DNA of 39,151 nt, taken from positions 1 to 39,151 of the forward strand of contig JAGWGB010000012.1 in the NCBI GenBank assembly GCA_028867595.1, in the 5' to 3' direction. The notes under the pieces are model-generated. The model did no database searches. It was not told the DNA's origin and saw only the letters and a list, made by a program, of their open reading frames with translations. The stretch is from Nitrososphaerota archaeon (GTDB taxonomy: Archaea > Thermoproteota > Nitrososphaeria > Nitrososphaerales > Nitrosopumilaceae). A program made the translations under genes and the position numbers. Shown here piece by piece: positions 10,587 through 31,264 of the stretch (its first letter is position 1; each line of letters begins with the position of its first letter).

Positions 10587-11411
10587 TTAGGAATTGTTTT
10601 CTTCGGTTTCTTTTGTAACACTATGACTGTGTACATTTTTGTTTTTTCTAGTTACTAACGCGTACACAAATGAGATGGAGACTATGCTTACAGCTAGAAC
10701 AGGTCCTGCCCATTGTGGCAATATGTCTGTATTAGTGACTCTTCCGTAGGACTCTAAAGATGCAACTGATACTGCAGCACCGCTTAGGGCATAAGCCATG
10801 TATCTGAAACTATTAGTATTGAATATTCTAGAAAATGCAGAACGAAGCAATACACTATTTAGTGTGTCTATAGGAATCATTCCAAGTGCAAAGAATCCAG
10901 AGAGAATTAATGCGGTTTGAATTCCAGTTGTTGCAGATGCTACAGCAGATAAGCTGATTGCAGAGATTTGTGTAGCCGTATCAAAACCCAAACCAAAAAC
11001 GAGACCAGTAACGAGGGAAGAACCTACAGGACCCAACATCCCAGTTCTCTTTAGAATTTTTGTTGCAAGTATTGCAGAACCGCTCTTACCCCATTTCTTT
11101 ATCGCATAGATATTAATTCCACCAATTACGCCTAGTGCAACTGCGCCCACTATGCCTCCCCAAAACTGAAGATTTCCTGTACTAACAAGGCCACCTACTA
11201 CGTAGATTATGAGAACCATTTCAGCCAAGACGGACAACATATGGCCAGAACTAAATCCTATTCCTACCAACCTAGATTTTTTTGTAGCATTATGCAATCT
11301 GACTAGATTATCAATTGCAGTAATATGGTCAACATCAACTCCATGACGCATTCCTAGAACTAGCATCGTAGGCACTGACAATAGAATAAAGGCCCAAGAG
11401 GTATCAATCAT
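10587..11411 (-). CDS. NiCoT-family nickel/cobalt permease
   Basis: A 274-residue integral membrane protein. The family signature RHGVDVDHITAIDN is near residue 23 (helix II HX4DH motif), followed by GIGFSSGHMLSVL and GLVFGLGFDTATQI, both typical of NiCoT. About seven helices are predicted. These permeases take up Ni(2+) and/or Co(2+) using the proton gradient. Because the urease locus begins 3 kb away and urease needs nickel, nickel is the likelier substrate; selectivity between Ni and Co cannot be read from sequence. The C-terminal tail carries one HSHS-like histidine group. Confidence 0.9.
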   Translation of the reverse strand: MIDTSWAFILLSVPTMLVLGMRHGVDVDHITAIDNLVRLHNATKKSRLVGIGFSSGHMLSVLAEMVLIIYVVGGLVSTGNLQFWGGIVGAVALGVIGGINIYAIKKWGKSGSAILATKILKRTGMLGPVGSSLVTGLVFGLGFDTATQISAISLSAVASATTGIQTALILSGFFALGMIPIDTLNSVLLRSAFSRIFNTNSFRYMAYALSGAAVSVASLESYGRVTNTDILPQWAGPVLAVSIVSISFVYALVTRKNKNVHSHSVTKETEENNS

Positions 11412-14482: not shown

Positions 14483-16180
14483 TCAATAATAATGATGTGA
14501 TGGTCTCTGTATCTTTCCAAGCTTGTCAAAGTGATCATGCGGTTTGTTTCCTTTTGCATGTGAATGTGTAGTGCCATCCCCATGAGTATGTGTATACATT
14601 GCAGGTTGTTTCATAATAACTTCATCTACACGTAGAAGTAATGATGCAACGTCTGACGCTGTTTTTATTACTTGTTCTTTGACTATCAAAGGTTCAACAA
14701 TATGTTCAGAATACATTTCTTTCACTTTTCTTTCATTTGTGTCTATACCATACCAAGAATGAATTTTTCCGTTATTGTGCTCAGAATTTTTGCTTCTTAG
14801 TTGAACAAGCGCATCAATTACATTCATTCCAGAATTTCTAGCTATTGTTAATGGAATTTCCTCTAGGGCTTCAGCAAAATTTTGAATAACGGTTTGTTCT
14901 TTGCCCTCTATCAAAAGCGATTTTTTTCTTAGTTCATTTGCAATAATTATTTCAGTGGAACCTCCACCTGCCACTATTGATGGATGAGTAAAGAAATCTT
15001 TTAGGACAGTTATAGCATCGAGCACCGTACGATGATATTCATCTAACAGTCTCTTGGAATTTGCACGTAATAATATCGTGACTGATTTTGGGTTTTTGCA
15101 TCCTTCTGCGAATACCATTTTATCATCGCCTACAAATTTTTCATAGACTTTACCTGCAAAACCTAAATGTTCTTGGGTTATGTTATTCAGATCGTTTGTT
15201 ATCATACCGCCTGCAGCCTTTTCCAACCAATGTAGATCATTTTCTTTCACTCTACGAATAGATATCATGCCTGCCCTTGATAGATAATGCTGAGCTAGAC
15301 GGCTGATTCCCTTTTGACAGACTACAACATTTGCACCTGAATTAATTATCTTCTGAGTTTTTTCTTTCACGTCTTCATTTTCTTTTGAGATATATTGTTG
15401 CATTTCTTCTGGCGAATGGATGATAATTTCTGCATCAGTTTTTGTTCTCTCATTGTCAAGCTCTACATTAATTAGAAGAATTTTTGCATTCTTTATTATC
15501 CTAGGCATTGCAGAATTGTCAATTGTTTTGTCAATCACGATTCCTCGGACTAGTTGAATATCCGATGTATTTCCTGGTTTTTCTTCTATCTTAATGTCAT
15601 CTGTTTCAACTTTTTTATTTGCAAAATCTGCAATTGTGCAAAATGCATCAGTGACTAATTCTGCAATAGGCTTATCTTCACATAACATGGAGATAGATTT
15701 TGAATTCAGACATGTTTTTGCTAGATTGATCATTATTTCTTTATTCCTGTAACTTGATGATTTTGCAATTGATTTCACAATATCTAGTGCCATCTCACCA
15801 GCCTTTTTGTATCCTGCTTCAATGGTAGAAGGTGATATTCCTAGATCCAGCATTTTTTCTGCTTTTTCAAGAAGAGATCCAGCTAGAACAACTACCGATA
15901 TTGTTCCATCTCCTACTTCATTATCAACTGAATTTGATGCATCTATCATTACCTTAGCAGCTGGATGTTCAACATCGATTTTGCGCAATATGGTAGAACC
16001 ATTCTTGCTTAGGGTAACCTCGCCTAGAAGATCAATGTAGATTTTTTCAAATCCTCTTGGTCCAAATGATGTTTTGACAAGATCTGCAATTAATTTCCCA
16101 GCAAGTAGATTATATCTACGAGTTTCTTCCCCTACAGAAAATTGGGTTCCCTCACCAAGTAAATTATCGGTAGAACTCAT
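14483..16180 (-). CDS. Divergent thermosome-family chaperonin with His-rich C-terminus
   Basis: A 565-residue group II chaperonin subunit. Equatorial motifs are recognisable: SFGPRGFEKIYID, VGDGTISVVVLAG (D91) and VAGGGSTEIIIA preceded by VLDAITVL (catalytic Asp kept). The nucleotide-loop motif normally written NDGAT is KNGST here (Asp to N60), so ATP turnover may be altered. The last 38 residues carry eight histidines (H531, H533, H539, H541, H548, H550, H562, H563) in HTH, HSH and HDH pairs, unlike the usual Gly/Met-rich thermosome tail. It lies directly after ureD in the accessory operon, though a TATA-like element about 25 bp upstream suggests its own near-leaderless transcript too. A role in urease or nickel handling is inference. 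Confidence 0.85.
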   Translation of the reverse strand: MSSTDNLLGEGTQFSVGEETRRYNLLAGKLIADLVKTSFGPRGFEKIYIDLLGEVTLSKNGSTILRKIDVEHPAAKVMIDASNSVDNEVGDGTISVVVLAGSLLEKAEKMLDLGISPSTIEAGYKKAGEMALDIVKSIAKSSSYRNKEIMINLAKTCLNSKSISMLCEDKPIAELVTDAFCTIADFANKKVETDDIKIEEKPGNTSDIQLVRGIVIDKTIDNSAMPRIIKNAKILLINVELDNERTKTDAEIIIHSPEEMQQYISKENEDVKEKTQKIINSGANVVVCQKGISRLAQHYLSRAGMISIRRVKENDLHWLEKAAGGMITNDLNNITQEHLGFAGKVYEKFVGDDKMVFAEGCKNPKSVTILLRANSKRLLDEYHRTVLDAITVLKDFFTHPSIVAGGGSTEIIIANELRKKSLLIEGKEQTVIQNFAEALEEIPLTIARNSGMNVIDALVQLRSKNSEHNNGKIHSWYGIDTNERKVKEMYSEHIVEPLIVKEQVIKTASDVASLLLRVDEVIMKQPAMYTHTHGDGTTHSHAKGNKPHDHFDKLGKIQRPSHHYY

Positions 16181-16272: not shown

Positions 16273-17166
16273 TTATTGCGGACTATGAATTGGAGGTTCT
16301 ATTTTGTGTTCGATATTGGCACAAGTTCTGATAACATGAATTATAGACTCTGTCAAAGTGATTATTTCAGATGCTGAATCTGCAAGTATTCTCATAATTA
16401 TTCCACAGTCATTGGGCAGAGATGAACAACTCGCTAAAATGGATGTATTTTTTGTGGCTAGATTGATTTCTTCCATGATTCTTTCTGTTGAAATAGAGAT
16501 GCCAAGTATGTAAACAGTAGAAAAAGCACCTTTTCCTTCAAATACTGCCTCTAGATATGGCTTATCTTTATGGTTCAGGCTCATAACATCCGTGAAAAGA
16601 ATTTGGTCATTTCTGCAAGCTGAAGTACGAAGAAAACAGAGATCAAAGTCATATTTTTCTCCAGATGCAACACGACCTGCAGATATAATTTCAGAGTAGA
16701 TCAGTATCGCATTCTTGTCAACCTCAAGATTTACCTCTTGATAAAATCTTGATGATTTAAATGGAATAATCTGATGTGGAACAAATTCTAGATAGCTTCC
16801 TTCCTGACCATGTATGTTGATGTATTGCGAGGCATATCCATCTTCCATCTTGTAAATTTTGGTTGCAGATTGATTAGTGATTCTTCCTTTAGAATTTTTT
16901 CCCATGACGATATCAATTTTCTGTTCATCACCCTGTAAGATGCCTCCAGAAGATGACATCATGTAGATGTGTGCAAATTTTGGGTAATCCGAGTCTGGAT
17001 ACATGGCCTTTTGAATTAGAAATGGAGCTTTTGACATCAATGATTTTACATATGTTTTGGAATTTTTATCTAATTCAAGCTCCAATCTTATTGTACCATT
17101 TTGACCTGGCATTTTGGTTTCTTTATTTTTGAAATTTTTGAAGATGTCTGGAATATGATGACTCAT
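16273..17166 (-). CDS. ureD: Urease accessory protein UreD (UreH)
   Basis: A 297-residue UreD/UreH protein, the scaffold that binds apo-urease and recruits UreF and UreG for nickel loading. Family features include the ILQGDEQKIDI segment, ATKIYKMEDGYASQ (typical TxxxxKVYR-like turn) and LEFVPHQIIPFKSSRFYQ. ATG overlaps the ureG stop by ATGA (17163-17166), so translation is coupled. A 93-bp gap precedes the chaperonin gene. Confidence 0.92.
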   Translation of the reverse strand: MSHHIPDIFKNFKNKETKMPGQNGTIRLELELDKNSKTYVKSLMSKAPFLIQKAMYPDSDYPKFAHIYMMSSSGGILQGDEQKIDIVMGKNSKGRITNQSATKIYKMEDGYASQYINIHGQEGSYLEFVPHQIIPFKSSRFYQEVNLEVDKNAILIYSEIISAGRVASGEKYDFDLCFLRTSACRNDQILFTDVMSLNHKDKPYLEAVFEGKGAFSTVYILGISISTERIMEEINLATKNTSILASCSSLPNDCGIIMRILADSASEIITLTESIIHVIRTCANIEHKIEPPIHSPQ

Positions 17167-17828
17167 CTGATTCTATCCTTTTTGGCTATAGTTTTTTTGT
17201 CAAACAGTATTGATTTGATTATGTTTTCGGCAACATATTCTATACCCTCGCCAGTTTGGCAATTAACAAACACAAAGGGTTTTCCTTCTCGGATTTTTTG
17301 TGCGTCTCGCTTCATTATACTGATGTCTGCTCCTACATGTGATGCCAAATCAATCTTGTTGATCACAAGTAAATCGCTACTTTCTATTCCCAATCCACCT
17401 TTTCTTGGATATTTGTCACCACCTGCTACATCGACTATGTAAATGAAATAATCTGCAAGAGCCGGGCTAAAGGTAGTCATAACATTATCGCCACCACTTT
17501 CAATAATGATTAAATCAAGACTGGGATCTTTTTTTTCTATTTCGTCAATCACTGCTAAATTTATTGTGGGGTCTTCACGTATTGCAGTATGGGGACAACC
17601 TCCAGTAGCTATTCCTATAATCATGTTTTCAGGCATGACTTTAAGCTCTGTAGATAATACTCGTTGCATTCTTTCTGCATCTTCTTTTGATATAACATCA
17701 TTTGATATTATACAACATCTGTAGCCTTTTTCTATCAAAACCGGTACTATTCGTTCAATTAATCTAGTTTTCCCAGAACCTACCGGTCCACCAATTCCAA
17801 CTTTGGGTATTTTTCTATTTTTTGACAT
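17163..17828 (-). CDS. ureG: Urease accessory GTPase UreG
   Basis: The SIMIBI-class GTPase that delivers nickel to urease. P-loop GGPVGSGKT, the CPH nickel motif in GGCPHTAIRED, DLIIIESGG (Walker B region) and the guanine specificity motif NKID are all visible. The ATG at 17828 is chosen; an in-frame TTG directly before it (17831) would add one residue. About 221 residues, normal size. It follows ureF by 15-18 bp and overlaps ureD. Confidence 0.96.
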   Translation of the reverse strand: MSKNRKIPKVGIGGPVGSGKTRLIERIVPVLIEKGYRCCIISNDVISKEDAERMQRVLSTELKVMPENMIIGIATGGCPHTAIREDPTINLAVIDEIEKKDPSLDLIIIESGGDNVMTTFSPALADYFIYIVDVAGGDKYPRKGGLGIESSDLLVINKIDLASHVGADISIMKRDAQKIREGKPFVFVNCQTGEGIEYVAENIIKSILFDKKTIAKKDRIR

Positions 17829-17845
17829 CAAAAATCACTTCAAAT

Positions 17846-18547
17846 CTATGTTATGAACATCTTAGAACTGTCATGCTCGTGAATCATTTGGAAAATATCT
17901 GTAAGTGGTGTCAGTTGCCAAATATTGTCAAGTGATTCTTTCTCAATATTTTTTGAAATGCTATTAATCTTGACTGAAAGTAGTGTAAGAATTTTTTGAC
18001 CACTAATATGATCAATTATTCCCAATCTAATTGCTGCTGCAATAATGTTTTGACTGAATGAATAAAGCATCATCCTTATTCCACTCTCAGGTGGAATTCC
18101 AAATAGATTTGCTGCCATGGCATAACAGACAGGATGCGTTCCAGGAGTTTTATTTGATAATATTTTCTTTTGAAACTGCTTTGCTATTATGTTTTCTTTT
18201 TTATCAGACGCCATTTGGATTACACAATTCAAGATTTGTGAACCAGATCTGACAGAGGCATTCCGTACTTCTTTTATTAGTCTCATTGTGTAGAATCGAT
18301 TATCTATTTCAACTAGTTCTTCAATATTTTTATTTTCTATGGCATTTATTGCTGCTAGAAAAATCATGCAGTCACAAGGTACTAGCTGAAATTCTATTTG
18401 TCGTTCAATGAAACTTGTAACATCTTTATCATTTCTGATTCGCTGATGCTTTACAAGTGATTCCAATCCATTAGACATTCCAAACATGCCTGACGGAAAG
18501 AAAGAATCTGCCAATTGCATTAAAAAAAATTCATGATCAGTGTTCAT
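17846..18547 (-). CDS. ureF: Urease accessory protein UreF
   Basis: An all-helical activator that works with UreD and gates UreG GTPase activity. The N-terminal MQLADSFFPSGMFGMSNGLES matches the family's LQLxDSxxPxGxFxxSxGLE pattern. The frame reaches a GTG at 18562, but the ATG at 18547 (MNTDHEFFLMQL) is a better start and overlaps the end of ureE by 11 bp. About 233 residues. Confidence 0.92.
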   Translation of the reverse strand: MNTDHEFFLMQLADSFFPSGMFGMSNGLESLVKHQRIRNDKDVTSFIERQIEFQLVPCDCMIFLAAINAIENKNIEELVEIDNRFYTMRLIKEVRNASVRSGSQILNCVIQMASDKKENIIAKQFQKKILSNKTPGTHPVCYAMAANLFGIPPESGIRMMLYSFSQNIIAAAIRLGIIDHISGQKILTLLSVKINSISKNIEKESLDNIWQLTPLTDIFQMIHEHDSSKMFIT

Positions 18548-19037
18548 GTATATACATTCCACGTTGAGGTTGAAAAATCTGTTCTTCTACCATAAATTCA
18601 AAGTCATGCATGATTCCAGAAAAGAGTTTTTTGAACACCTCGACTTCAGAATCCACATGTATAGGAAAAGAGAGAGTATCGTCGTTTATCATGATTGGTT
18701 TATGCCTGTTTCCTATAATATGTCCAAGAGTGACTAGATTAACAGGGTTATCCTTTAGATTCTTTATTTTTATCGAAATTACCTTTTCAGGTAATTGTTC
18801 AACTATAACGAATTTTTCTTGATCTGCCATTATAACATCACCGTGATAGAGTTGAGAATTCAAAATTAGACCTATGTCAGTTCCAAGGTCGGTCGTTTTC
18901 CTAATCCTACCTCTTTCCAGCTCATGACGCAGGATTTTCATCCTCTCACATTTTTTTTGAGATTCCATTTGTTTGAATTTGTTCATTAACTCTTTATCAT
19001 GAAAAATATTTCCAACTATTGTTGTAATAGTGAGCAT
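18537..19037 (-). CDS. ureE: Urease accessory protein UreE (no His-rich tail)
   Basis: A 166-residue nickel metallochaperone. The N-terminal domain holds ERGRIRKTTDLGTDIGL; the C-terminal domain holds LVTLGHIIGNRHKPI, where the GN.H segment contains the dimer-interface metal-site histidine. It ends GMYIHEH with only two late histidines, so it lacks the long His-rich tail of enterobacterial UreE. First gene of the leftward accessory operon, with a TATA-like AAAATATAAT (19061-19070) about 25 bp before the ATG. Confidence 0.92.
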   Translation of the reverse strand: MLTITTIVGNIFHDKELMNKFKQMESQKKCERMKILRHELERGRIRKTTDLGTDIGLILNSQLYHGDVIMADQEKFVIVEQLPEKVISIKIKNLKDNPVNLVTLGHIIGNRHKPIMINDDTLSFPIHVDSEVEVFKKLFSGIMHDFEFMVEEQIFQPQRGMYIHEH

Positions 19038-19131: not shown

Positions 19132-19434
19132 ATGATGCTCACTCCAAGAGAAATAGACAAACTCTATATTTTTATGACAGCAGAAGTTGCACGAAGAAGA
19201 AAATCGAGAGGGTTGAAGCTTAACTACGTAGAAGCGTTGGCATTGATTTCAGACCACATAGTTGAAGGAGCAAGAGACGGAAGATCAGTGTCGGAATTAA
19301 TGAGTTCTGGAAGGAAGGTGTTAACAAGAGATGATGTTTTACCTGGTGTACCTGAGTTAATTAAGACGGTTCAGACTGAAGCAACATTTGAAGATGGAAC
19401 CAAACTTGTTACGGTTCATGATCCTATCGTATAG
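19132..19434 (+). CDS. ureA: Urease gamma subunit UreA
   Basis: A 100-residue structural subunit. Recognised by [35 protein letters not shown] and the highly conserved [12 protein letters not shown], ending VHDPIV. Separate UreA, UreB and UreC indicate the three-subunit prokaryotic enzyme. Tandem ATG codons at 19132 and 19135 leave the first residue uncertain. The ureB start is two bases past its stop. A paralogue of this protein lies at 28384-28764. Confidence 0.96.
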
Positions 19435-19436
19435 GT

Positions 19437-19808
19437 ATGATTCCTGGAGAATATTTCATAAATGATGTTCCCATTATTGCAAATAAAGGCAGAAAGACAA
19501 TAAAGATCACAGTTAGCAATTCCGGAGACAGACCAATACAAGTAGGTTCTCATACGCATTTTTTTGAAACCAACAAAGCTCTAGTGTTTTCTAGAGAGAA
19601 AGCTTATGGTTTTCGGCTGAATGTTCCCGCAGGAACATCAGTAAGGTTTGAACCTGGGGATACAAAAGAAATAGAACTTACAGAATATGTCGGACAAAAA
19701 ATAGTATATGGATTTAACAGTCTTGTTAATGGCAAACTCTCCACTAGAAAACAAATTGCAATCAAGAAAGCACGAAAGCTAGGGTTCAAGGATAGTGATC
19801 AGAAATGA
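19437..19808 (+). CDS. ureB: Urease beta subunit UreB
   Basis: A 123-residue beta subunit. IPGEYF, the [12 protein letters not shown] motif, [18 protein letters not shown] and the [12 protein letters not shown] region match the family closely. ATG overlaps nothing upstream (2-bp gap to ureA) and its stop overlaps the ureC ATG as ATGA. Confidence 0.96.
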
Positions 19809-21517
19809 CATTGATCATTCCCAGAAAACAATACGTTGATCTTTATGGACCTACTAAAGGAGATAAAATTAGACTTGCTGACACGGATCTGATAATTGAA
19901 ATCGAAAAAGATTTTCAGACATATGGAGATGAGATAGTTTTTGGCGGAGGCAAAAGTGCCAGAGATGGAATGGGTCAGGCAAGTGGGGTTACTAGTAGAA
20001 ATGCTCTTGACCTAGTAATAACAAATGCAGTTATCATAGATCCAATTCTAGGTATTGTCAAAGCAGATATCGGTATCAAAAATGGATTAGTAGTTGGCAT
20101 TGGAAAGGCAGGCAATCCAAACATCATGGACGATGTGGATATGATAATATCAGCAAATACCGAAGTGATTGCAGGAGAACACACGATATGTACTCCTGGG
20201 ATAATTGATACACATATTCATTTTATTGCTCCTCAACAAGCAATAGAAGCAATCTGTAGCGGCACTACAACCATGATTGGTGGTGGTACAGGACCTGCTG
20301 ATGGTACTAAGGCAACAACATGTACTCCTGGTCCATGGAATATTCACAGAATGCTTGAGGCTCTCGATGAATTTCCTCTAAATTTTGGATTGTTGGGAAA
20401 AGGGAATGATTCTAGGGAACCTGCCCTAATGGAACAGATTGCTGCAGGAGTCTGCGGTTTGAAATTACATGAGGACTGGGGTTCTACTCCTGCTACTATT
20501 GATGCCGCTCTGCGTGTTGCCGATAAAACTGACACTCAAGTGGCCATTCATACAGATACATTAAACGAATGTGGTTTTGTTGATGACACAATCAATGCAA
20601 TAGATGGAAGAACAATTCACACATATCACACAGAAGGCGCAGGTGGAGGACATGCCCCAGACATTATGAAAATAGCTGGTGAGAAAAACATTCTTCCTTC
20701 CTCAACAAATCCAACGAGACCATTTACCGTTAATACATTAGAAGAACATCTTGACATGATGATGGTTTGCCATCATCTAAATCCCTCTGTAAGAGAAGAC
20801 GTTGCATTTGCAGAATCTAGAATTAGGGGCGAGACTATTGCTGCAGAAGATGTGTTGCATGATATTGGCGCTCTAAGTATGTATTCTTCTGATAGTCAAG
20901 CCATGGGTAGAGTTGGGGAAGTAAGTATCAGATTGTGGCAGACTGCCGATAAAATGAAAAAGACGGTTGGTCGCCTAGCAGAAGAGACAGGAGATAATGA
21001 CAACATACGTGTTAAAAGATATCTTGCAAAACTTACCATCAATCCAGCAATAACACATGGCATTTCTAGTTATGTAGGTTCTTTGGAGACAGGTAAATTG
21101 GCTGATATCGTCATGTGGTCACCCGAGTTTTTTGGTGTAAAACCTAAACTCGTAATAAAAGGAGGATTTGTAGCCTATTCTTTGATGGGGGATCCAAATG
21201 CATCTATTCCCACTCCAGAGCCAGTATATTATCGCCCCATGTTTGGTGCATTTGGACAAGCGATGTATTCTACCTCAGTGACCTTCACTTCAAAATTAGC
21301 AATAAGAAACGGTTTGGCAAAAAAATTAGGTTTGAAAAAGAGACTACTCCCAGTCAAAAATTGCAGAAAGATAACCAAGAAAGATATGGCTTACAACAAC
21401 TTGTTGCCGAAAATAGAGATTGATCCTGAAACTTACAAAGTTTTGGTCGATGGAAAGCTTGCCACAACTGAAGCTTCAAAAAAACTCTCCATGGCTAGAC
21501 TGTATCATTTGTTCTAG
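19805..21517 (+). CDS. ureC: Urease alpha (catalytic) subunit UreC
   Basis: A 570-residue dinickel amidohydrolase that splits urea into ammonia and carbamate. All catalytic residues are present, each three positions later than in Klebsiella urease: nickel ligands H137 and H139 (DTHIHF), carbamylated K220 (GLKLHEDW), H249 and H275, D363 (SSDSQAMGR), and the flap histidine H323 in MVCHHL. An apparently active enzyme. In an ammonia oxidiser it supplies ammonia from urea. The ATG overlaps the ureB stop. Confidence 0.98.
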
Positions 21518-21570: not shown

Positions 21571-21825
21571 ATGTCACCAGTCAAGACACGCGATGACGTA
21601 GAAAAAGCTTCAAGGAAAGCAGTAGAGTCACTCTATGGCAATGAAATACAAGATTTCAAGATAAGAGAGCTCTTTCCATTACCAGAAAAAGGTCCACAAG
21701 ACTCTTGGGATGTACAAACGACTTTTCTGCTAAACAAGTTGAAGCATACAGTAGATTTGGTTATTCAGATGAAAGATGGGCATGTAACCAATGCAAGACT
21801 GATTGATACAATGGTTCCTTTGTAG
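21571..21825 (+). CDS. 84-residue protein downstream of ureC, unknown
   Basis: A small soluble protein with an N-terminal helix (RDDVEKASRKAVESLYG) followed by a predicted beta-rich part (IQDFKIRELFPLP...WDVQTTFLL...HTVDLVIQMKDGHVTNARLI). It looks like a small alpha/beta fold; no family recognised. It has its own AT-rich promoter (21535-21555) and a palindrome just upstream, and a T-rich tract after the stop (21838-21860). Position after ureC suggests, but does not prove, a link with urea use. Confidence 0.65.
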   Translation: MSPVKTRDDVEKASRKAVESLYGNEIQDFKIRELFPLPEKGPQDSWDVQTTFLLNKLKHTVDLVIQMKDGHVTNARLIDTMVPL

Positions 21826-22012: not shown

Positions 22013-22534
22013 ATGCCTAGTCAAGGGTATGGAACCATAGGACTAAAGCCAGCTATCATCTCCAAATTACAGAAAGCTACGGATGAGTACTATCCAGGTA
22101 TGTTTCTTCCAAGTGCACTGATAATTATCATGAATGAGATAAAACGACAGTACTATACAATAGGAATGTATAATTTCAAGATAGATTTTTCTGGCAGATA
22201 TACGTCTCTGACAGTCAGATCTGATGTAAAGAAATGGTTTGAAGAGAATTATGAAGCACTAAGAGAAAAATATGAGGAGAAATACAAAGCAAACAACTTT
22301 ACAAAATTTGCAAGCATCTTTATGCTCAACATGTTTGAATCCAAGGCAGCATCTCAAAATAATGTAATCAAGCTCAAAGAATCAGACTTTACTTGGTTGA
22401 TGTGGGAATACGAGCAACGAAAAAAAGAATATGAGACAAAGTATGGTGTTAAAACATTCGAACGTTTCTCTGATGTATTTCTTAAAGACCTGTTAGAACG
22501 GGTTAGCTCTGCAAAAAAAATACTGACCTTATAG
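22013..22534 (+). CDS. Protein with internal duplication, unknown
   Basis: A 173-residue protein. Two similar stretches are visible: residues ~76-107 (LREKYEEKYKANNFTKF then ASIFMLNMFESK) and ~138-168 (RKKEYETKYGVKTFERF then SDVFLKDLLERV). Both follow KYExKY-x4-F-x2-F-x3-F-x4-L/M-x-E, which suggests a duplicated helical motif, possibly DNA- or self-binding. Not assigned to a family. TATA-like TTTTAAAATAA about 20-28 bp upstream of the ATG fits a leaderless start. Confidence 0.65.
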   Translation: MPSQGYGTIGLKPAIISKLQKATDEYYPGMFLPSALIIIMNEIKRQYYTIGMYNFKIDFSGRYTSLTVRSDVKKWFEENYEALREKYEEKYKANNFTKFASIFMLNMFESKAASQNNVIKLKESDFTWLMWEYEQRKKEYETKYGVKTFERFSDVFLKDLLERVSSAKKILTL

Positions 22535-22559: not shown

Positions 22560-22853
22560 TTAGTTTGATAACATGGCAAGACCGGACGTTGTTGGTTTGC
22601 CTACTCCTGCCTTCAATAATAGGCTAAAAGTCAAAGAGATGTCAGTTTTTGTGATATTGGGCATATCTATTGCATTTCCTTCATGTTTTAGATCATTTAT
22701 GAAGTCAAATATTTCATCCACCGTGACAGGCTCATTTTCAAATCCCAATTGATCATTTACAGCGTTGTATGTGGCAATGTAATAGCTCAAAATAGATGCC
22801 TTGCTTAGGAATTCTTCTGTTTTTGTATAGAAACCAGAACTAAATTTTTCCAT
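22560..22853 (-). CDS. 97-residue protein, unknown
   Basis: A small mostly helical acidic protein (ASILSYYIATYNAVNDQLGFE...VDEIFDFINDLKHEGNAIDMP). No membrane segment or metal motif. It converges on the preceding gene with a gap of about 25 bp. Family not recognised. Codon use is like its neighbours and the ATG is preceded by an AT-rich promoter-like stretch. Confidence 0.5.
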   Translation of the reverse strand: MEKFSSGFYTKTEEFLSKASILSYYIATYNAVNDQLGFENEPVTVDEIFDFINDLKHEGNAIDMPNITKTDISLTFSLLLKAGVGKPTTSGLAMLSN

Positions 22854-23047: not shown

Positions 23048-23797
23048 GTGAAGATCAAAAACATTCCTCTTAAGCTCATAGACATTGCAGAAGAAAACGT
23101 TAGAAAAGATCATCCTTTTGGCGAAGATAGTAGAGACCAATTAATCAAGGAACATTTGTCAAAGTTTGAGTTGTTACAACCGGTAGTTGTAAGATTCGAT
23201 AATGCGAGTAAAAGGTACAAGCTGCTAATAGGACGTAGAAGATTTCTATCACTTAGCGCAAAGGGATCAAGAGAAATACCTGCAGTAATAACAGAAATGG
23301 AAGGTTCAGAAGCAGAAGCGGCATCTTTATTTGAAAATCTAATCCGTAAAGATCTTTCTCCAATTCAAAAAGCAAAGATGGTGAAAAAATTAGTTGATTC
23401 TACTGAGTCAGGCATTACAGGCGTTTCAAGAAAATATGGATTGTCAAAGAGTACAGTCAGTGAATGGTTGAGTGTTCTGACTTTGGCGGAACCATTGCAA
23501 CAGGCAATAGAAAGTGGTGAAATAACTCTTTACGAAGCTATACAGATAGCAAGAAAACCAAAAGCACTTCAGGAAAAATTGGTAAATGCGGTATATGATG
23601 GAAAGTTGCAAGAAGTAATGATAAAAACAGGAGTTAAACGTGGAGCTCCAAAAGGTCTCTTAACTGTACGTCTTGTTTTTAATCCAAAGAAAAAATTTGA
23701 CAAAAAGATATGGGATCAATTAAATCAACAAGCTTCTCAGAATGGGTTAGATGTGACTGATTACGTCAAAAATCTACTCATAAAACGCCTCAACTAG
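23048..23797 (+). CDS. Orphan ParB/Spo0J-like DNA-binding protein
   Basis: A 249-residue ParB-family protein. The N-terminal ParB domain shows LIGRRRFLSLSAKGSREIPAVI and LFENLIRKDLSPIQKA, corresponding to the GERRxRA and ENxxRxxL boxes of the CTP-binding fold. A helix-turn-helix follows (ITGVSRKYGLSKSTVSEWLSVL, about residues 117-139). The last 50 residues (LTVRLVFNPKKKFDKKIWDQLN...) look like a ribbon-helix-helix-type dimerisation tail. The start is GTG, set by the TATA box 25 bp before. No parA is in the window. It may be a chromosome-segregation or nucleoid factor or a site-specific regulator; a 13-bp palindrome abuts its stop codon. Confidence 0.85.
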   Translation: MKIKNIPLKLIDIAEENVRKDHPFGEDSRDQLIKEHLSKFELLQPVVVRFDNASKRYKLLIGRRRFLSLSAKGSREIPAVITEMEGSEAEAASLFENLIRKDLSPIQKAKMVKKLVDSTESGITGVSRKYGLSKSTVSEWLSVLTLAEPLQQAIESGEITLYEAIQIARKPKALQEKLVNAVYDGKLQEVMIKTGVKRGAPKGLLTVRLVFNPKKKFDKKIWDQLNQQASQNGLDVTDYVKNLLIKRLN

Positions 23798-23825: not shown

Positions 23826-24293
23826 CTACCTTATTGCCAATACGGGGCAATGCGCATATGTTACGACATGATTGGCTACACTGCCCATTAGGAATTTTTC
23901 TATTCCAGTCATGCCTTTGGTTCCAATTACGATCAAGTCCATTTTATGTTTCTTGGCATAATCTATTATTGCCTTCTCAGCGGATGAATCCACTAGAACT
24001 TCAGACTGCATACTTATTCCATTTTCTTCACCCCACTTTACTGCTCCGTTAAGCAATTTTTCGGCGTTACGTTTCATTGCGTCTTGATATGCCTTGAGCT
24101 TTCCACCTCTGTAATATCCAAGCACGTCACCTGTCGCTCCAAATGATGACTTTCCTATTACATGTACTACAGTCACCTCTGCTCCCAAGGCTTTGGCAAG
24201 AGTAATCGCATATGCAGTAGCTTTGTCTTTGTAACCTGATTTGTCAATTGCCAAAAGAATTTTGGATATTTTGCTTTGATTTTTTTCTGACAT
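23826..24293 (-). CDS. Universal stress protein (UspA family)
   Basis: A 155-residue cytosolic UspA-fold protein. The ATP-binding signature G-x2-G-x9-G-S is present as GTKGMTGIEKFLMGSVANHV near the C-terminus and KILLAIDKSGYKD at the N-terminus, so it is of the ATP-binding type. It lies downstream of the SSS transporter on the same strand with a gap of about 35 bp and may be cotranscribed with it. Confidence 0.92.
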   Translation of the reverse strand: MSEKNQSKISKILLAIDKSGYKDKATAYAITLAKALGAEVTVVHVIGKSSFGATGDVLGYYRGGKLKAYQDAMKRNAEKLLNGAVKWGEENGISMQSEVLVDSSAEKAIIDYAKKHKMDLIVIGTKGMTGIEKFLMGSVANHVVTYAHCPVLAIR

Positions 24294-24328: not shown

Positions 24329-25915
24329 TCATATTGCCCCACGTTTGCTACCACCAGCATCTACTACTCTCATATCAATAGGATTGACCCACTCTTTCAC
24401 GTCAGCACCGCTAACTACATCCATGTCATTTGGAATCAAGTACACCACATCATGTCGTGGTGGCGTTCTTCTTTGGGTTGCCAAACTTGTCAATATGAAC
24501 ACTGGTAATGACACCAATGGTGGAATGATCGTATCAAGACCTGCGTAAGCTAGATACGGGCTACCAGTTGGTGCATTTGTTATGAGGAAGAATAAGAACA
24601 GTCTTAGTCCAGTACCTACCGCAATGGATGCTACTGCTCCTGAAGCTGTGGATTTCTTCCAGTATGTTCCAAAAACTAGAGGGACCAAACATCCTGCTAG
24701 CACAATGTCAAATGCCAATATGAGATAGATTCCAGGCCTTGGAATCAGATCACCTAGAGCAAAAGCGGTAAAGAACATAGGTATTACAAGAAGCCGCGTA
24801 GCAAGTAGCAGCTGCCTATCATTGAGTTTCTGTTTTTTCATAATTCTTAAAATATTGCGTTGCAAAAAGTTCCTTGACAGTACACTGGCAATAGCCAAAG
24901 TTCCTCCATTTGCAGTAGACATGCCACAACTTATTGTACTTACCAACATCAGAATACCTATTACCATTGGCGCGTGTTTTATTGCTACAATTGGAAATAG
25001 CGTATAGGAATCAGTAAGACCTGGTTCTAGGCTTAGTCCAATTATTCCTACCATTGTAGTTGGAATCAAAAATATTAATGTCAGACCTGCTCCAAAATAG
25101 CAACTCTTTTGTGCAGTCCTTCCACCATCTGCTGCAAATACTCTTTCCATGAAATCTAATGCAACAATATCTCCTACTCCTAACGAGATTATTCCTGCCC
25201 AATTGGGTAGTGCACCATTATTGATATCATATAATCCAGACATATCCATGAAGTTACCCGGAACATTTGCAACTATAGATTCCAAGCCTCCCGGAATTGG
25301 TGACCATGGACTAATAAAGTACAGAAATCCTGCCCAAAATCCAATTATTGCAAGATAAATATGGAAAATATCTGTATAAGCACAGGAAAACAGGCCACCG
25401 AAATAAGTATACAGTAATACTACAGCAGTTGAAATTAACATTGCATAAACTAGAGGTATTCCAAGTAAGACAGATAAGATATATCCACTTGCACCGAGAT
25501 TTCCCGCAACAAGAACAATGAAACTGATTGCCATCAAAGTTCCTGACATTACTTCAGTTGTGTTTCCATATCTCCTGTAATAGAAATCTGCGAGTGTGAT
25601 CATAGACATTCTGTTAAATCTTTTTCCAAAGAATGCACCAGTTAAAACTAGACAGACAGCCAGACCAAGCGGAATCACTGCACCTCCCCAGAATCCAAAT
25701 TGATAGGTTAACGAAACATTTCCAAGCGAAGCATTTCCATCAACTGCTTCAGACACCAGCATTGTTCCGATAAAAAATAATGGCAAACTTTTACCAGCAA
25801 CAATGTATCGTTTGCTGCTTCTTTTAACAAATTTTACTGCAAGAACTCCAATTGCAGCGGTTGCAGCTACAAATGCTAGAACCACTATAGGATACGCAAT
25901 TGGAATATCTCCCAT
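24329..25915 (-). CDS. Sodium:solute symporter (SSS), urea-transporter-like
   Basis: A 528-residue symporter with about 13 membrane helices. SSS hallmarks include LADFYYRRYGN in the cytoplasmic loop after helix 2, GGLFSCAYTDIFH, and STISCGMSTANGGTLAIASVLSRNF. Ammonia-oxidising archaea with urease commonly carry a DUR3-like member of this family as urea transporter, and its place beside ureABC and the ureohydrolase supports that, though substrate is inferred from context. The gene is preceded by a TATA-like AATATATAATT (about 25930-25942) and a 13-bp palindrome at 25968. Confidence 0.88.
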   Translation of the reverse strand: MGDIPIAYPIVVLAFVAATAAIGVLAVKFVKRSSKRYIVAGKSLPLFFIGTMLVSEAVDGNASLGNVSLTYQFGFWGGAVIPLGLAVCLVLTGAFFGKRFNRMSMITLADFYYRRYGNTTEVMSGTLMAISFIVLVAGNLGASGYILSVLLGIPLVYAMLISTAVVLLYTYFGGLFSCAYTDIFHIYLAIIGFWAGFLYFISPWSPIPGGLESIVANVPGNFMDMSGLYDINNGALPNWAGIISLGVGDIVALDFMERVFAADGGRTAQKSCYFGAGLTLIFLIPTTMVGIIGLSLEPGLTDSYTLFPIVAIKHAPMVIGILMLVSTISCGMSTANGGTLAIASVLSRNFLQRNILRIMKKQKLNDRQLLLATRLLVIPMFFTAFALGDLIPRPGIYLILAFDIVLAGCLVPLVFGTYWKKSTASGAVASIAVGTGLRLFLFFLITNAPTGSPYLAYAGLDTIIPPLVSLPVFILTSLATQRRTPPRHDVVYLIPNDMDVVSGADVKEWVNPIDMRVVDAGGSKRGAI

Positions 25916-26061: not shown

Positions 26062-26244
26062 TTAAACTCTATGTTCACGAGCCATATGTAACATAAAAGA
26101 CGACTCGTTTTCATAAGATTCATCGCAGGTTATACACAAATATGTAGTTTTTTTGTCATGACTATCTTGTGCATGCTTGACCAACTCGTCACGATATTTA
26201 AATCGCATACCACATGCACCGCATCCATAGCTTTTCGCAAACAA
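26062..26244 (-). CDS. Two-finger C2H2 zinc protein
   Basis: A 60-residue protein with two C2H2 zinc fingers: C-x2-C-x12-H-x4-5-H in GCGACGMRFKYRDELVKHAQDSH and the second in CITCDESYENESSFMLHMAREH. Small archaeal C2H2 proteins may bind DNA or protein. The start is TTG at 26244; the only nearby upstream ATG (26252) is out of frame. An A/T-rich promoter-like stretch lies at 26262-26280. Confidence 0.7.
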   Translation of the reverse strand: MFAKSYGCGACGMRFKYRDELVKHAQDSHDKKTTYLCITCDESYENESSFMLHMAREHRV

Positions 26245-26313: not shown

Positions 26314-26835
26314 TTATGATTTCATTTTTTTAAGTTTTGTATACAGCATAGGATCTAATTTTCTTGCAGTATCAAAACTTTTTTGGCCTTCCCTTTCATT
26401 TCCTAGAAGAGCGAGTGCACGACCTTTGTTATACCACGCTTTTGCATATTTTTCATTTAATTCTATAGCTTTATCAAAACATTCAATGGATTCTTCTATT
26501 TTATTTGATCTTATTAGCGTCAGTCCTTTGTTATGCCATGTTATTGCATTAGATGAATCTATCACTAATGCTCTAGAGAATGATTCGATTGCCTCATCTT
26601 TTCTGCCTAGTTTATCTAGCATGAGCCCGCGGTCACCCCATGCAAAATCATTTTTTGGATTCATCTCTATGGCTTTCTCAAAATATTTCAGCGCTTGTTC
26701 ATAATTGCTCTTATTTGCAGCGTCTTCACCTATTTTCACCAAATCTTCAGAAGCTTCTTTTTTTGAAGAAACTTTCTTGTATTCTATAGTGGGTGGAAGT
26801 TCAGGTTTATTTTTTTTAAACCAACTAAATACCAT
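26314..26835 (-). CDS. TPR-repeat protein
   Basis: A 173-residue protein with about four tetratricopeptide repeats between residues 30 and 165 (for example YEQALKYFEKAIEMNPKN, DEAIESFSRALVIDSSN, EESIECFDKAIELNEKY and EGQKSFDTARKLDPM), forming a protein-binding superhelix. The N-terminal 28 residues are basic and disordered-looking. No enzymatic domain. Partner unknown. Confidence 0.88.
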   Translation of the reverse strand: MVFSWFKKNKPELPPTIEYKKVSSKKEASEDLVKIGEDAANKSNYEQALKYFEKAIEMNPKNDFAWGDRGLMLDKLGRKDEAIESFSRALVIDSSNAITWHNKGLTLIRSNKIEESIECFDKAIELNEKYAKAWYNKGRALALLGNEREGQKSFDTARKLDPMLYTKLKKMKS

Positions 26836-27268: not shown

Positions 27269-28387
27269 ATGGGAATGGAATTCTATGGAGATTCATACAA
27301 AGGCAATGACGAACCAATTTTTGTGGGCATTCCTACGTTCTTGAAATTGCCTTGGATAAGAAGTAAGGCAGAGTTAGAAAAAGTAAGACCAGATATTGCA
27401 ATAATAGGAGAACCTTTTGATTTTGGAACAACCATCAGACCAGGTGCAAGATATGGACCTAGAGCTATAAGAGCTGCATCTACAGTACCGTCTCCACCAT
27501 ATGAGCATTTCAACATTGAAACAGGAGTTGATCCTTTTGGTGTATTCAGAACAGTCGATTATGGTGATGTAAACATCTCACCAGGCGATGTAGTAGAATC
27601 GCATAGAAGAATGACTGATAAAGTTAAAGAAGTTTTAGACATCGATGGCATCCCAGTCATGCTTGGGGGCGATCACTCCATTACTTTTGCAAATGTAAGG
27701 GCTTTTGCAAAGAAATACAAAAACATTGGAATGATCCACATCGATACCCACGCTGACTGCGCTCCACAAGGACTATGTGGCTTCAAATACGATCATGGTG
27801 CACACATCAGACGAATTATGGAACTTGGCTGCTTGAAGGGCAAGAACTATACTTTGATAGGACCTCGAGGATACTGGCCTGGCCCAGATCTCTACAAATG
27901 GATGGCAGACCAAGACTTTCAGTGGTTTACCATGCTTGATGTAGAAGAGCTAGGAATAGATCAAATTGCAAAAGAAGCTGCAGACAGAGCAAATGACAAT
28001 GTAGATGCAGTTTACATTAGTTGGGATATTGACACATTTGATCCCGCCTACGCTCCAGGAACAGGAGAACCAGAACCCAACGGCCTGACCTCTAGAGAAG
28101 GAATGAGATTGATGAGATTGCTATCAACCTCATTTGACCCAGACAAATTCGCCTTTGATCTAGTAGAAGTAGCTCCAAACTACGATGTAAGTGATGGCAA
28201 TTCCTACAATGGAGGAATCACTTCTGGCCTTGCAAATCGCCTGATAGTGGAACTCATGGCTGGACTATCTCTTACAAAGAAAGGACTACAAAATGGCAGC
28301 CCAGTAAGGCCAAAACTCTACCGTGGCAAAAACCACACGTATGACTTTGGCAACGGACCAAAAGCAAAAATTCCGAAAAGAAATTGA
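27269..28387 (+). CDS. Agmatinase/arginase-family ureohydrolase
   Basis: A 372-residue binuclear metallohydrolase that cleaves a guanidino group and releases urea. Metal ligands are complete: H136 (GGDHS), D159, H161, D163 (HIDTHAD) and D253, D255 (WDIDTFDP). PGTGEPEPNGLTSREG follows the agmatinase pattern. Compared with typical agmatinases of about 300 residues it is longer, mainly by a longer N-terminal part, an insert containing GPRGYWPGPDLY (199-210) and a basic C-terminal tail. Agmatine is the likely substrate given the arginine decarboxylase nearby; guanidine or another guanidino compound is possible, because nickel-dependent guanidine hydrolases belong to this family. The stop overlaps the start of the UreA-like gene. 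Confidence 0.9.
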   Translation: MGMEFYGDSYKGNDEPIFVGIPTFLKLPWIRSKAELEKVRPDIAIIGEPFDFGTTIRPGARYGPRAIRAASTVPSPPYEHFNIETGVDPFGVFRTVDYGDVNISPGDVVESHRRMTDKVKEVLDIDGIPVMLGGDHSITFANVRAFAKKYKNIGMIHIDTHADCAPQGLCGFKYDHGAHIRRIMELGCLKGKNYTLIGPRGYWPGPDLYKWMADQDFQWFTMLDVEELGIDQIAKEAADRANDNVDAVYISWDIDTFDPAYAPGTGEPEPNGLTSREGMRLMRLLSTSFDPDKFAFDLVEVAPNYDVSDGNSYNGGITSGLANRLIVELMAGLSLTKKGLQNGSPVRPKLYRGKNHTYDFGNGPKAKIPKRN

Positions 28388-28764
28388 TCAGCATCCAAGC
28401 CTTGGTAAAAGGTGAGCCAGACATTACTCCTTTTACCAAGCTTTTTGAGTTTTCAGATCAGGATGAACCTATTTTTTTAAATGTAATAGAAATGGTGAGA
28501 GACAAACTATCTAGAAAACTTCAACTAAATGTTCATGAGGCTTTATTGGCATATTATGATTATTTGGTAAGCGAGATCCGAGCAAAAAAATCAGATTCAG
28601 ACATAATAGAAAACTCATCAAAGATTCTAACACGTGATGATGTTTTAATTGGAGTGCCTGAAACTCTAAGAGAAATTACATTCAATATTACAGTCGATAA
28701 TTTTCTAAAACGAACAATTCAGTTTGTCAAACCTATTCCAGTTGTAGACTATACAATGGTATAG
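28384..28764 (+). CDS. Urease-gamma (UreA)-like protein coupled to ureohydrolase
   Basis: A 126-residue protein whose residues ~40-110 resemble UreA: KLQLNVHEALLAYYDYLV versus [16 protein letters not shown], and ILTRDDVLIGVPETLREI versus [18 protein letters not shown]. It has about 17 extra residues at the N-terminus and a longer C-terminal end (TIQFVKPIPVVDYTMV). The start is TTG at 28384 overlapping the ureohydrolase stop (TTGA), so the two are translationally coupled. There is no UreB or UreC with it. UreA has no catalytic residues, so a structural or assembly role is likeliest: partner of the ureohydrolase, or a bridge to urease or its maturation factors. The role is unknown. Confidence 0.8.
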   Translation: MISIQALVKGEPDITPFTKLFEFSDQDEPIFLNVIEMVRDKLSRKLQLNVHEALLAYYDYLVSEIRAKKSDSDIIENSSKILTRDDVLIGVPETLREITFNITVDNFLKRTIQFVKPIPVVDYTMV

Positions 28765-30177: not shown

Positions 30178-30864
30178 TCATTGTTTTGCAATGTTCCTGT
30201 AGATACTGGCAGTTATAATGGAACCGGCAAAAGTTGCTGTCCAATATAGCCACAGATCATTGAGATAACCTGAAACTATGGCGGGTGCTAAAGACCTAGC
30301 CGGATTCATTGAGGCTCCAGATATGAATGCCAAAAAGAATATGTCTAATCCTATTATTCCACCTATTGCAATTCCACTAAATCCTTTCAATCCCTTCGTA
30401 TGCACTACCACCAAAATTACTGCCATCAGTAATCCAGTGGCTAGCATCTCAACACCAAATATCACGGGCATAGAAAAATTATAATCAGGTGCGTTTGCTC
30501 CAAGGTTTGCTTCGGTTCCTATAACATACTTTACAAAAATACTTGCTGTCAATGCACCAATTATTTCAGCCGCCAAATATACAGCCAAGAGATTTTTTGG
30601 CATATGTTTTGTGACAAGAAAACCCATAGTTACTGCTGGATTAAAGTGCGCCATCGATATTTTTCCAAATGCGTAAACCATGAGAGCCACTGCTACAGCA
30701 GGAGATAATGCTACAAACCATAATCCAAATGTTCCAACATACTTTGCGTCAAGTACTACTGAACCGGTTGCAAATACAACTATCATAAATGTACCAATAA
30801 GCTCTGCAAAAAACCTCTTTTGATTAGAGGTTAATCTGCTAGTTAGATTCAAGGTTCTTGACAA
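30178..30864 (-). CDS. Aquaporin / MIP-family channel
   Basis: A 228-residue channel with six helices and both pore NPA boxes (HFNPAVTMG and SMNPARSLAP). It conducts water and/or small neutral solutes. Its start overlaps the end of the arsenate reductase gene by 26 bp, so the two are cotranslated; in some bacteria an aquaglyceroporin replaces an arsenite pump beside arsC, and the same use is plausible here. No shortcut to say water versus arsenite from sequence. Confidence 0.92.
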   Translation of the reverse strand: MSRTLNLTSRLTSNQKRFFAELIGTFMIVVFATGSVVLDAKYVGTFGLWFVALSPAVAVALMVYAFGKISMAHFNPAVTMGFLVTKHMPKNLLAVYLAAEIIGALTASIFVKYVIGTEANLGANAPDYNFSMPVIFGVEMLATGLLMAVILVVVHTKGLKGFSGIAIGGIIGLDIFFLAFISGASMNPARSLAPAIVSGYLNDLWLYWTATFAGSIITASIYRNIAKQ

Positions 30865-31264
30865 GTTCTTTCACTTTTGCTTCTATCTTATCTCTGATCT
30901 CACGTACTTTTTCTATAGGTTTGTTCTTTGGATCCTCGATTCCCCAATCTTGAAAATTACCCAAAAATACAGCTGGACATTCTGCTTGATCAATGCATCC
31001 CATGCTTACCTTTAGAAATGAAGAGCGAATCAACTCTTCAGATAATTCTTTTGGTCTCTGTTTACTGATGTCTATTCCAACCTCATTCATGGCTTGTACT
31101 GCAAGAGGATTAATTTCTGGTGTTGGTCTTGAACCGGCACTAAGTGGAGCCCATCCTTTTGGAGCATATTTTCTAAAAAACCCTTCTGCTATCTGACTTC
31201 TCCCAGCATTTTCAACACATGCAAAAAGAATCTTCTTTTCTGGTTTTTTCCCAAACAGGCCCAT
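30839..31264 (-). CDS. arsC: Arsenate reductase ArsC, thioredoxin-coupled type
   Basis: A 141-residue low-molecular-weight phosphatase-fold protein. P-loop C16-x5-R22 in CVENAGRSQ, redox pair C90 and C96 in MGCIDQAECPAVF, and the WGIEDP general-acid motif match thioredoxin-linked ArsC, which reduces arsenate to arsenite. A phosphatase cannot be fully excluded, but three correctly placed cysteines favour ArsC. Divergent from an HxlR-type regulator, 63 bp apart. Confidence 0.88.
   Translation of the reverse strand: MGLFGKKPEKKILFACVENAGRSQIAEGFFRKYAPKGWAPLSAGSRPTPEINPLAVQAMNEVGIDISKQRPKELSEELIRSSFLKVSMGCIDQAECPAVFLGNFQDWGIEDPKNKPIEKVREIRDKIEAKVKELVKNLESN

Follow-up and report, generated by a model that had tools for sequence, protein, structure and literature searches.

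A urease gamma-like protein paired with a ureohydrolase in ammonia-oxidizing archaea, a possible accessory subunit

Ammonia-oxidizing archaea (AOA) are a globally important group. In a 39,151-nucleotide stretch of DNA from one of them, a member of the Nitrososphaeria (contig JAGWGB010000012.1; hereafter the window), a gene resembling ureA directly follows a ureohydrolase gene and does not adjoin ureB or ureC. What does a urease gamma-like protein do in such a place? The initial annotation suggested a new accessory subunit, which might either dock the ureohydrolase onto urease or borrow the nickel-delivery machinery of urease. We examined the identity of the two proteins, their linkage across related genomes and the genes conserved around them (Table 1).

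Table 1 Features of the window and related chaperonin genes in other loci
Feature	Position	Strand	Basis
NicO/NiCoT-type nickel/cobalt transporter	10587..11411	-	PF03824, E = 1.1e-19
Thermosome (TCP-1/Cpn60) paralogue with conserved His-rich C-terminal tail	14483..16180	-	PF00118, E = 2.5e-149
ureE, ureF, ureG, ureD (urease nickel-delivery machinery)	16273..19037	-	Translations and homology in relatives
True urease, ureA-ureB-ureC	19132..21517	+	UreA: PF00547, E = 7e-45; UreB and UreC: translation and homology in relatives
84-aa protein, conserved in cassettes	21571..21825	+	No Pfam match over cut-off
173-aa protein, conserved in cassettes	22013..22534	+	No Pfam match
97-aa protein, conserved in many cassettes	22560..22853	-	No Pfam match
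ParB-like regulator, conserved in many cassettes	23048..23797	+	PF02195, PF17762
Universal stress protein (Usp) beside the symporter	23826..24293	-	Translation; homologues in related loci
Sodium:solute symporter, 528 aa, cassette-specific	24329..25915	-	PF00474
C2H2 zinc-finger protein, 60 aa, conserved in part of the family	26062..26244	-	PF00096
TPR protein, 173 aa, conserved in the cassette	26314..26835	-	
Ureohydrolase (arginase/agmatinase superfamily), 372 aa, cassette core	27269..28387	+	PF00491, E = 1.7e-79
UreA-like (urease gamma-derived) protein, 126 aa, TTG start	28384..28764	+	PF00547, E = 3.1e-9
Second TCP-1/Cpn60-type protein in urease operons of other AOA families	L169 2847-4259; L170 3683-5092; L171 3022-4428; L184 1508-2941; L188 11017-12429; L190 6804-8216		

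The ureohydrolase and its UreA-like neighbour

The upstream gene encodes a member of the arginase/agmatinase superfamily, with a PF00491 score of 267.7 bits against a cut-off of 22. The coordinates, lengths and six metal ligands given for it in the initial annotation were all correct, and the ligands (His136, Asp159, His161, Asp163, Asp253, and Asp255) are invariant among 82 full-length family members. The protein falls below the cut-off of the agmatinase equivalog TIGR01230 (155.4 vs 174.3 bits). Its dN/dS of 0.00–0.04 indicates very strong constraint, and the same genome encodes two further agmatinase-like paralogues. The enzyme itself belongs to a known superfamily; the novelty of the locus lies in its UreA-derived partner and in a His-tailed chaperonin described below. 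One distant family member, the ureohydrolase of genome G038 (L064 9521-10837), carries a His-rich C-terminal tail (GRTHIHSHKHGHHAHNHTK) that is absent from the other 81.

The nearest solved structures are GbuA (3nio) and the guanidinases 9fek and 7esr. Like GdmH of Synechocystis (7oi1/7esr) and the guanidinase of N. inopinata (9fek), the window protein belongs to the arginase superfamily and has the same metal ligands; Thr105, His222, and Glu344 of the N. inopinata enzyme correspond to Thr55, His176, and Glu300, all of which are kept. However, similarity to these enzymes is moderate (163 bits), and the position of the guanidinase-diagnostic Trp313 is occupied by Glu267, a residue that is Glu in 81 of the 82 members and Gln in one. 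This replacement disfavors a free-guanidine hydrolase, which had been one of the activities suggested for the protein. Agmatine or another guanidino compound of larger size, probably cationic, would fit as substrate, but the protein misses the agmatinase equivalog cut-off and the genome has its two other agmatinase-like paralogues. The best-scoring solved relative is GbuA (181 bits), which, together with proclavaminate amidinohydrolase (1gq6) and guanidinopropionase (3nip), likely performs comparable chemistry on a larger guanidino substrate; members of this group have Thr at the Glu267 position in our alignments. We know of no accessory subunit like the UreA-like protein for any of the three.

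The UreA-like protein scored 37.5 bits against PF00547 (gathering cut-off 23.9), which places it in the urease gamma domain family, and its best PDB match was the urease gamma subunit of M. tuberculosis (2fvh, E = 3.6e-7). The AlphaFold model (mean pLDDT 86) matched the same structure (Foldseek E = 4e-6, probability 1.00), and all Foldseek matches to an E value of about 0.02 were urease gamma subunits or gamma-containing chains, with gamma chains alone up to E = 0.001. Chance similarity is ruled out by these profile, PDB and Foldseek matches; the resemblance to UreA first noticed from the sequence is that of a strongly diverged but true urease gamma homologue. The protein differs from genuine UreA in several respects. 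Whereas UreA of the window (19132-19434) reaches 151.9 bits against PF00547, the UreA-like protein misses the UreA equivalogs TIGR00193 and NF009712 (29.3 vs 82.3 and 35.5 vs 123 bits), and its model has an N-terminal β-hairpin (residues 2–9 and 17–23) preceding the UreA-aligned region. In a tree of 39 UreA-like and 27 UreA sequences, the UreA-like proteins formed one clade, separated from UreA at 100/98 support. The true ureA with ureBC is present as initially described, at a distance from the ureohydrolase of about 8 kb rather than 9 kb.

The UreA-like proteins keep about 9 of the 47 positions at which UreA is nearly invariant, including Asn31, Glu34, Leu64, Val69, Gly72, Val73, Pro98, and Ile99, and the two groups share the motifs N-E, V-x2-GVPE, and PI. 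This pattern suggests that the UreA fold and one strip of motifs were retained while the remainder was rebuilt, and that the protein is unlikely to stand in for UreA in urease. Conserved metal-binding His or Cys residues were not found among the UreA-like proteins. Sequence identities of 44–76%, compared with 92–98% for the ureohydrolase, indicate that the UreA-like protein evolves far faster than its neighbor. Its dN/dS of 0.08–0.20, with dS mostly near or over saturation, indicates purifying selection, and on these values a pseudogene was rejected.

The two genes had been called translationally fused. The stop codon of the ureohydrolase (TGA, 28385-28387) indeed lies within a TTGA and the ORFs overlap by 4 nt, but they are in different frames; they are therefore translationally coupled at most and yield no fusion protein.

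Linkage of the two genes across the order

A close ureohydrolase (78–98% identical) is present in 10 of 61 relatives, and a UreA-like gene adjoins it in all 10; the other relatives have neither. Across 400 genomes of the order, the ureohydrolase was found in 92 (96 close matches). For 77 of the 96, a UreA-like profile match lies immediately downstream on the same strand, at a spacing (by profile match) of at most 8 nt in 56 of the 77 pairs; the match in G038 was counted as adjacent once the tail of its ureohydrolase was included. Among 88 judged loci, the UreA-like gene directly follows the ureohydrolase in 80. This count comprises 79 loci assigned by script and the locus of G130 (L122), which was counted as positive because its ureohydrolase ORF is merely interrupted by a TAG, with the UreA-like gene coming after the downstream fragment. 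The association is thus broader than one window could show.

The prospect that UreA-like proteins would be found mostly away from ureohydrolases did not materialize: among the matches listed for the 400 genomes, which cover the stronger ones, no family-level UreA-like protein lies elsewhere, although some distant stray copies may exist. A 300-genome sample taken phylum-wide showed the ureohydrolase in no other order. The linkage part of the accessory-protein idea is borne out by a urease gamma paralogue tied to this type of ureohydrolase. The UreA-like gene stays with the ureohydrolase, but the latter lacks an intact UreA-like neighbor in 8 of the 88 loci, one of which (L095) holds a broken remnant; in L099 and L100, a NicO gene comes directly after the ureohydrolase and the UreA-like gene is absent. 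These loci indicate that the subunit is not universally required.

We also examined the relationship of the pair to urease. Every ureohydrolase genome among the 400 has a gamma-type gene match, and a test of 31 ureohydrolase genomes showed UreG in 27, the remaining four being fragmented or incomplete assemblies. Urease genes share the locus in 24 of 33 well-covered cases. An apparent case of the pair without urease, in genus g60, did not hold up, since this genus does have UreC and the accessory genes and its UreA is truncated by a contig end. A local loss is seen in the complete genome G006, in which ureABC, ureE, and ureF are deleted save an end of ureC, and ureG and ureD are broken. These operon remnants (L059 16930-18537) adjoin a cassette whose ureohydrolase, UreA-like protein, symporter and His-tailed thermosome are all intact, and a different urease is encoded 113 kb away. 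The survival of the cassette argues that both the UreA-like protein and the chaperonin are partners of the ureohydrolase and not of the neighboring urease.

Genome G038 offers a view of how the pair may have arisen. Its gene UreA2 (72.5 bits to PF00547) sits on a long branch between the UreA-like and UreA clades, and the gene order on one strand is ureohydrolase, UreA2, NicO, ureABC, and ureEFGD, an arrangement that looks ancestral. Most likely, the UreA-like protein arose by duplication of urease gamma and turned into a dedicated partner of the ureohydrolase.

The surrounding cassette and its nickel-related genes

The symporter is present in all 33 well-covered loci, those in which 6 kb of sequence flank the pair to either side. 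It occurs in 9 of the 61 relatives, all of them ureohydrolase genomes; in the tenth ureohydrolase genome, G028, the locus ends at a contig edge. Symporters adjoining other ureases are just 21–23% identical to that of the cassette, which probably imports the ureohydrolase substrate (or urea). A cluster of an SSS transporter and an agmatinase (SpeB) has been reported in NS-delta soil AOA and is apparently the same symporter–ureohydrolase neighborhood; the passage describing it mentions neither the UreA-like protein, NicO nor the His-tailed chaperonin (PMC11131427). This cluster was all that our literature search returned on the pairing in AOA, and the searchable literature suggests that the UreA-derived partner and the His-tailed chaperonin have not been reported.

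Several smaller genes accompany the cassette. L060:13958-16396 includes a Usp part (PF00582), and homology to it also underlies the name of the universal stress protein. The small proteins encoded at 21571-21825, 22013-22534, and 22560-22853 recur in cassettes across families of the order. Beyond the UreA-like gene, an aquaporin-like channel gene adjoins an arsenate-reductase-like protein (30178-31264, minus strand), both named by sequence alone.

Two conserved neighbors point to nickel. The first is the NicO-type transporter, which matches TIGR00802 with E = 2e-21, under the cut-off of that model. In L058, L062, and L063, its homologue immediately follows the UreA-like gene, and of 83 loci, 40 have a NicO-type gene as the next gene downstream in the same orientation. 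The motif H-x4-DH is present in all 44 full-length copies; Pfam support ranges from E = 1.1e-19 for PF03824 down to weak or absent in many copies, and one copy resembles an efflux family.

The second is the thermosome paralogue, whose C-terminal tail (THTHGDGTTHSHAKGNKPHDHFDKLGKIQRPSHHYY) contains at least 8 His in all 51 full-length cassette neighbors. Tail and ureohydrolase occur together in 81 of the 400 genomes; a further 11 have just the ureohydrolase, 7 just the tail and 301 neither (Fisher p = 1.6e-63, a value that ignores shared ancestry). The same split among genomes with a urease gamma-type match is 81, 11, 6, and 67 (p = 4e-27, likewise without regard to shared ancestry). Most exceptions are incomplete assemblies, while G038 seems a genuine one. 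The occurrence of the His-tailed thermosome follows that of the ureohydrolase and not that of urease alone, and the protein is possibly a nickel-handling group II chaperonin. HspA of H. pylori is a GroES with a His-rich, nickel-binding C-terminus; it shares with the cassette protein a His-rich tail on a chaperonin component in the context of a nickel enzyme, but it is a co-chaperonin whereas the cassette protein is a group II chaperonin subunit. If its predicted role is true, the thermosome paralogue would be, as far as we found, the first case of a group II chaperonin linked to a metalloenzyme. The nickel-related and His-rich genes could instead serve urease. Genome G006 argues otherwise, as do the urease-only genomes G037, G043, and G053, which lack the ureohydrolase and have neither the His tail nor the symporter. 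In urease operons of other AOA families, a second TCP-1/Cpn60-type protein of about 470 aa, about 23–27% identical to the His-tailed one, is encoded between ureC and ureE.

Possible roles of the UreA-like protein

Nickel ureohydrolases are a recent discovery. GdmH and the comammox guanidinase are nickel enzymes that release urea, and the window enzyme may use the same metal. GdmH is activated by nickel chaperones, as is MefH, a nickel-dependent heteromeric metformin/dimethylguanidine hydrolase whose activation requires HypA and HypB (PMC11399263). The MefH/DmgH operon (hypA-hypB, two ureohydrolase genes and hupE) resembles the cassette in combining nickel maturation genes with a nickel transporter (PMC11399263). 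Its second subunit is a ureohydrolase paralogue that has lost catalytic activity and its chaperones are HypAB, whereas the cassette encodes a urease gamma paralogue and a His-tailed thermosome. HypA was not found over cut-off in any of 20 cassette genomes, while control genomes gave matches. UreD docks on the alpha domain of urease, where it is flanked by beta and gamma (PMC10121161). Taken together, the chaperone requirement of known nickel ureohydrolases, the lack of HypA matches, the presence of UreG and the position of UreD suggest that the UreA-like protein most likely helps to assemble and metallate the ureohydrolase.

Based on these findings, we propose a plausible scheme. The symporter would bring a guanidino compound into the cell, the ureohydrolase would split off urea, and urease would convert the urea to ammonia for nitrification. 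The UreA-like protein, made by translational coupling, would bind the nascent or apo ureohydrolase and help it to assemble and to take up nickel. The metal would be supplied by the neighboring NicO-type transporter, presumed to work as an importer; its likely donor would be the UreE/F/G/D set, and the chaperonin with the His-rich tail would act as folding cage and nickel buffer; the UreA-like protein might thereby present a urease-like surface to UreD. We give a probability of roughly 0.45 to the UreA-like protein being an accessory subunit for assembly and probable nickel loading of the ureohydrolase in a urea-releasing cassette. Several findings count against this reading: the 8 loci that lack an intact UreA-like gene, the contacts of UreD mainly with the alpha domain and not gamma, the weak Pfam scores of many NicO copies, the likeness of one copy to an efflux family, and the fast evolution of a protein that has no conserved metal-binding His or Cys and keeps only some 9 of 47 UreA positions. 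The earlier suggestion of a nickel-dependent guanidine or agmatine hydrolase fares better on the metal, given the NicO genes (40 of 83 loci), the His-tailed chaperonin, the lack of HypA matches and the His tail in G038, than on guanidine. A bolder and rather doubtful version of the nickel-loading scheme makes the duplicated gamma an adaptor that gives a nickel ureohydrolase access to the nickel-delivery proteins of urease, aided by the group II chaperonin, in place of HypA/HypB, and thereby opens a guanidino source of nitrogen and energy.

Should the scheme hold, the cassette suggests an undescribed way of building a nickel enzyme whose urea goes into nitrification. It would also predict an unrecognized urea-yielding substrate for 92 of the 400 genomes sampled from the order, roughly a quarter, in which the enzyme goes by the name of agmatinase. 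The cassette is a testable candidate for the nickel supply of ureohydrolases without HypA/HypB; for comammox, how nickel reaches the guanidinase is an open question (PMC11410670).

The strongest alternative, which we consider unlikely though worth serious attention, gives the UreA-like protein a structural or regulatory role as a subunit of the ureohydrolase hexamer, where it would govern stability, gating or specificity with no relation to urease or nickel delivery. The new N-terminal β-hairpin could bind a new partner, most UreA-specific residues are gone, the protein persists with the ureohydrolase as the local urease decays in G006, and some lineages have lost it yet kept the enzyme. This reading leaves the nickel-linked neighbors in need of a separate explanation, as well as the gamma-type gene in every ureohydrolase genome, the near-constant UreG and the continued conservation of the N-E, V-x2-GVPE, and PI motifs of UreA.

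Docking of the ureohydrolase onto urease, with the UreA-like protein as a stand-in gamma that passes urea on directly, appears improbable to us. The gamma fold, the restriction of the ureohydrolase to genomes with a gamma-type gene and the urease genes in 24 of the 33 well-covered loci would accommodate it. Nevertheless, the N- and C-terminal invariants of UreA are lost, urea diffuses easily, and in G006 the co-evolved urease has been swapped for a different one while the UreA-like protein is still constrained.

We hold as very improbable a decoy gamma that, on expression of the ureohydrolase, regulates urease maturation by competing for UreC or UreD. The shared GVPE motif and the dependence of the UreA-like protein on a urease background are compatible with such a role, but its strict coupling is to the ureohydrolase and not to urease genes, and most UreA surface residues have been lost. 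Least credible is a decaying ureA duplicate that merely hitch-hikes, as fast sequence change, the broken copy in L095 and some losses might suggest, since purifying selection at near-saturating dS largely refutes it and the gene is present in about 80 loci of three families.

An Rfam search of the window returned no guanidine riboswitch; its sole match, to the H. pylori antisense ureB RNA 5_ureB_sRNA (55.5 bits, 19959-20246, minus strand), runs antisense to ureC and probably reflects conserved ureC coding sequence rather than an RNA gene.
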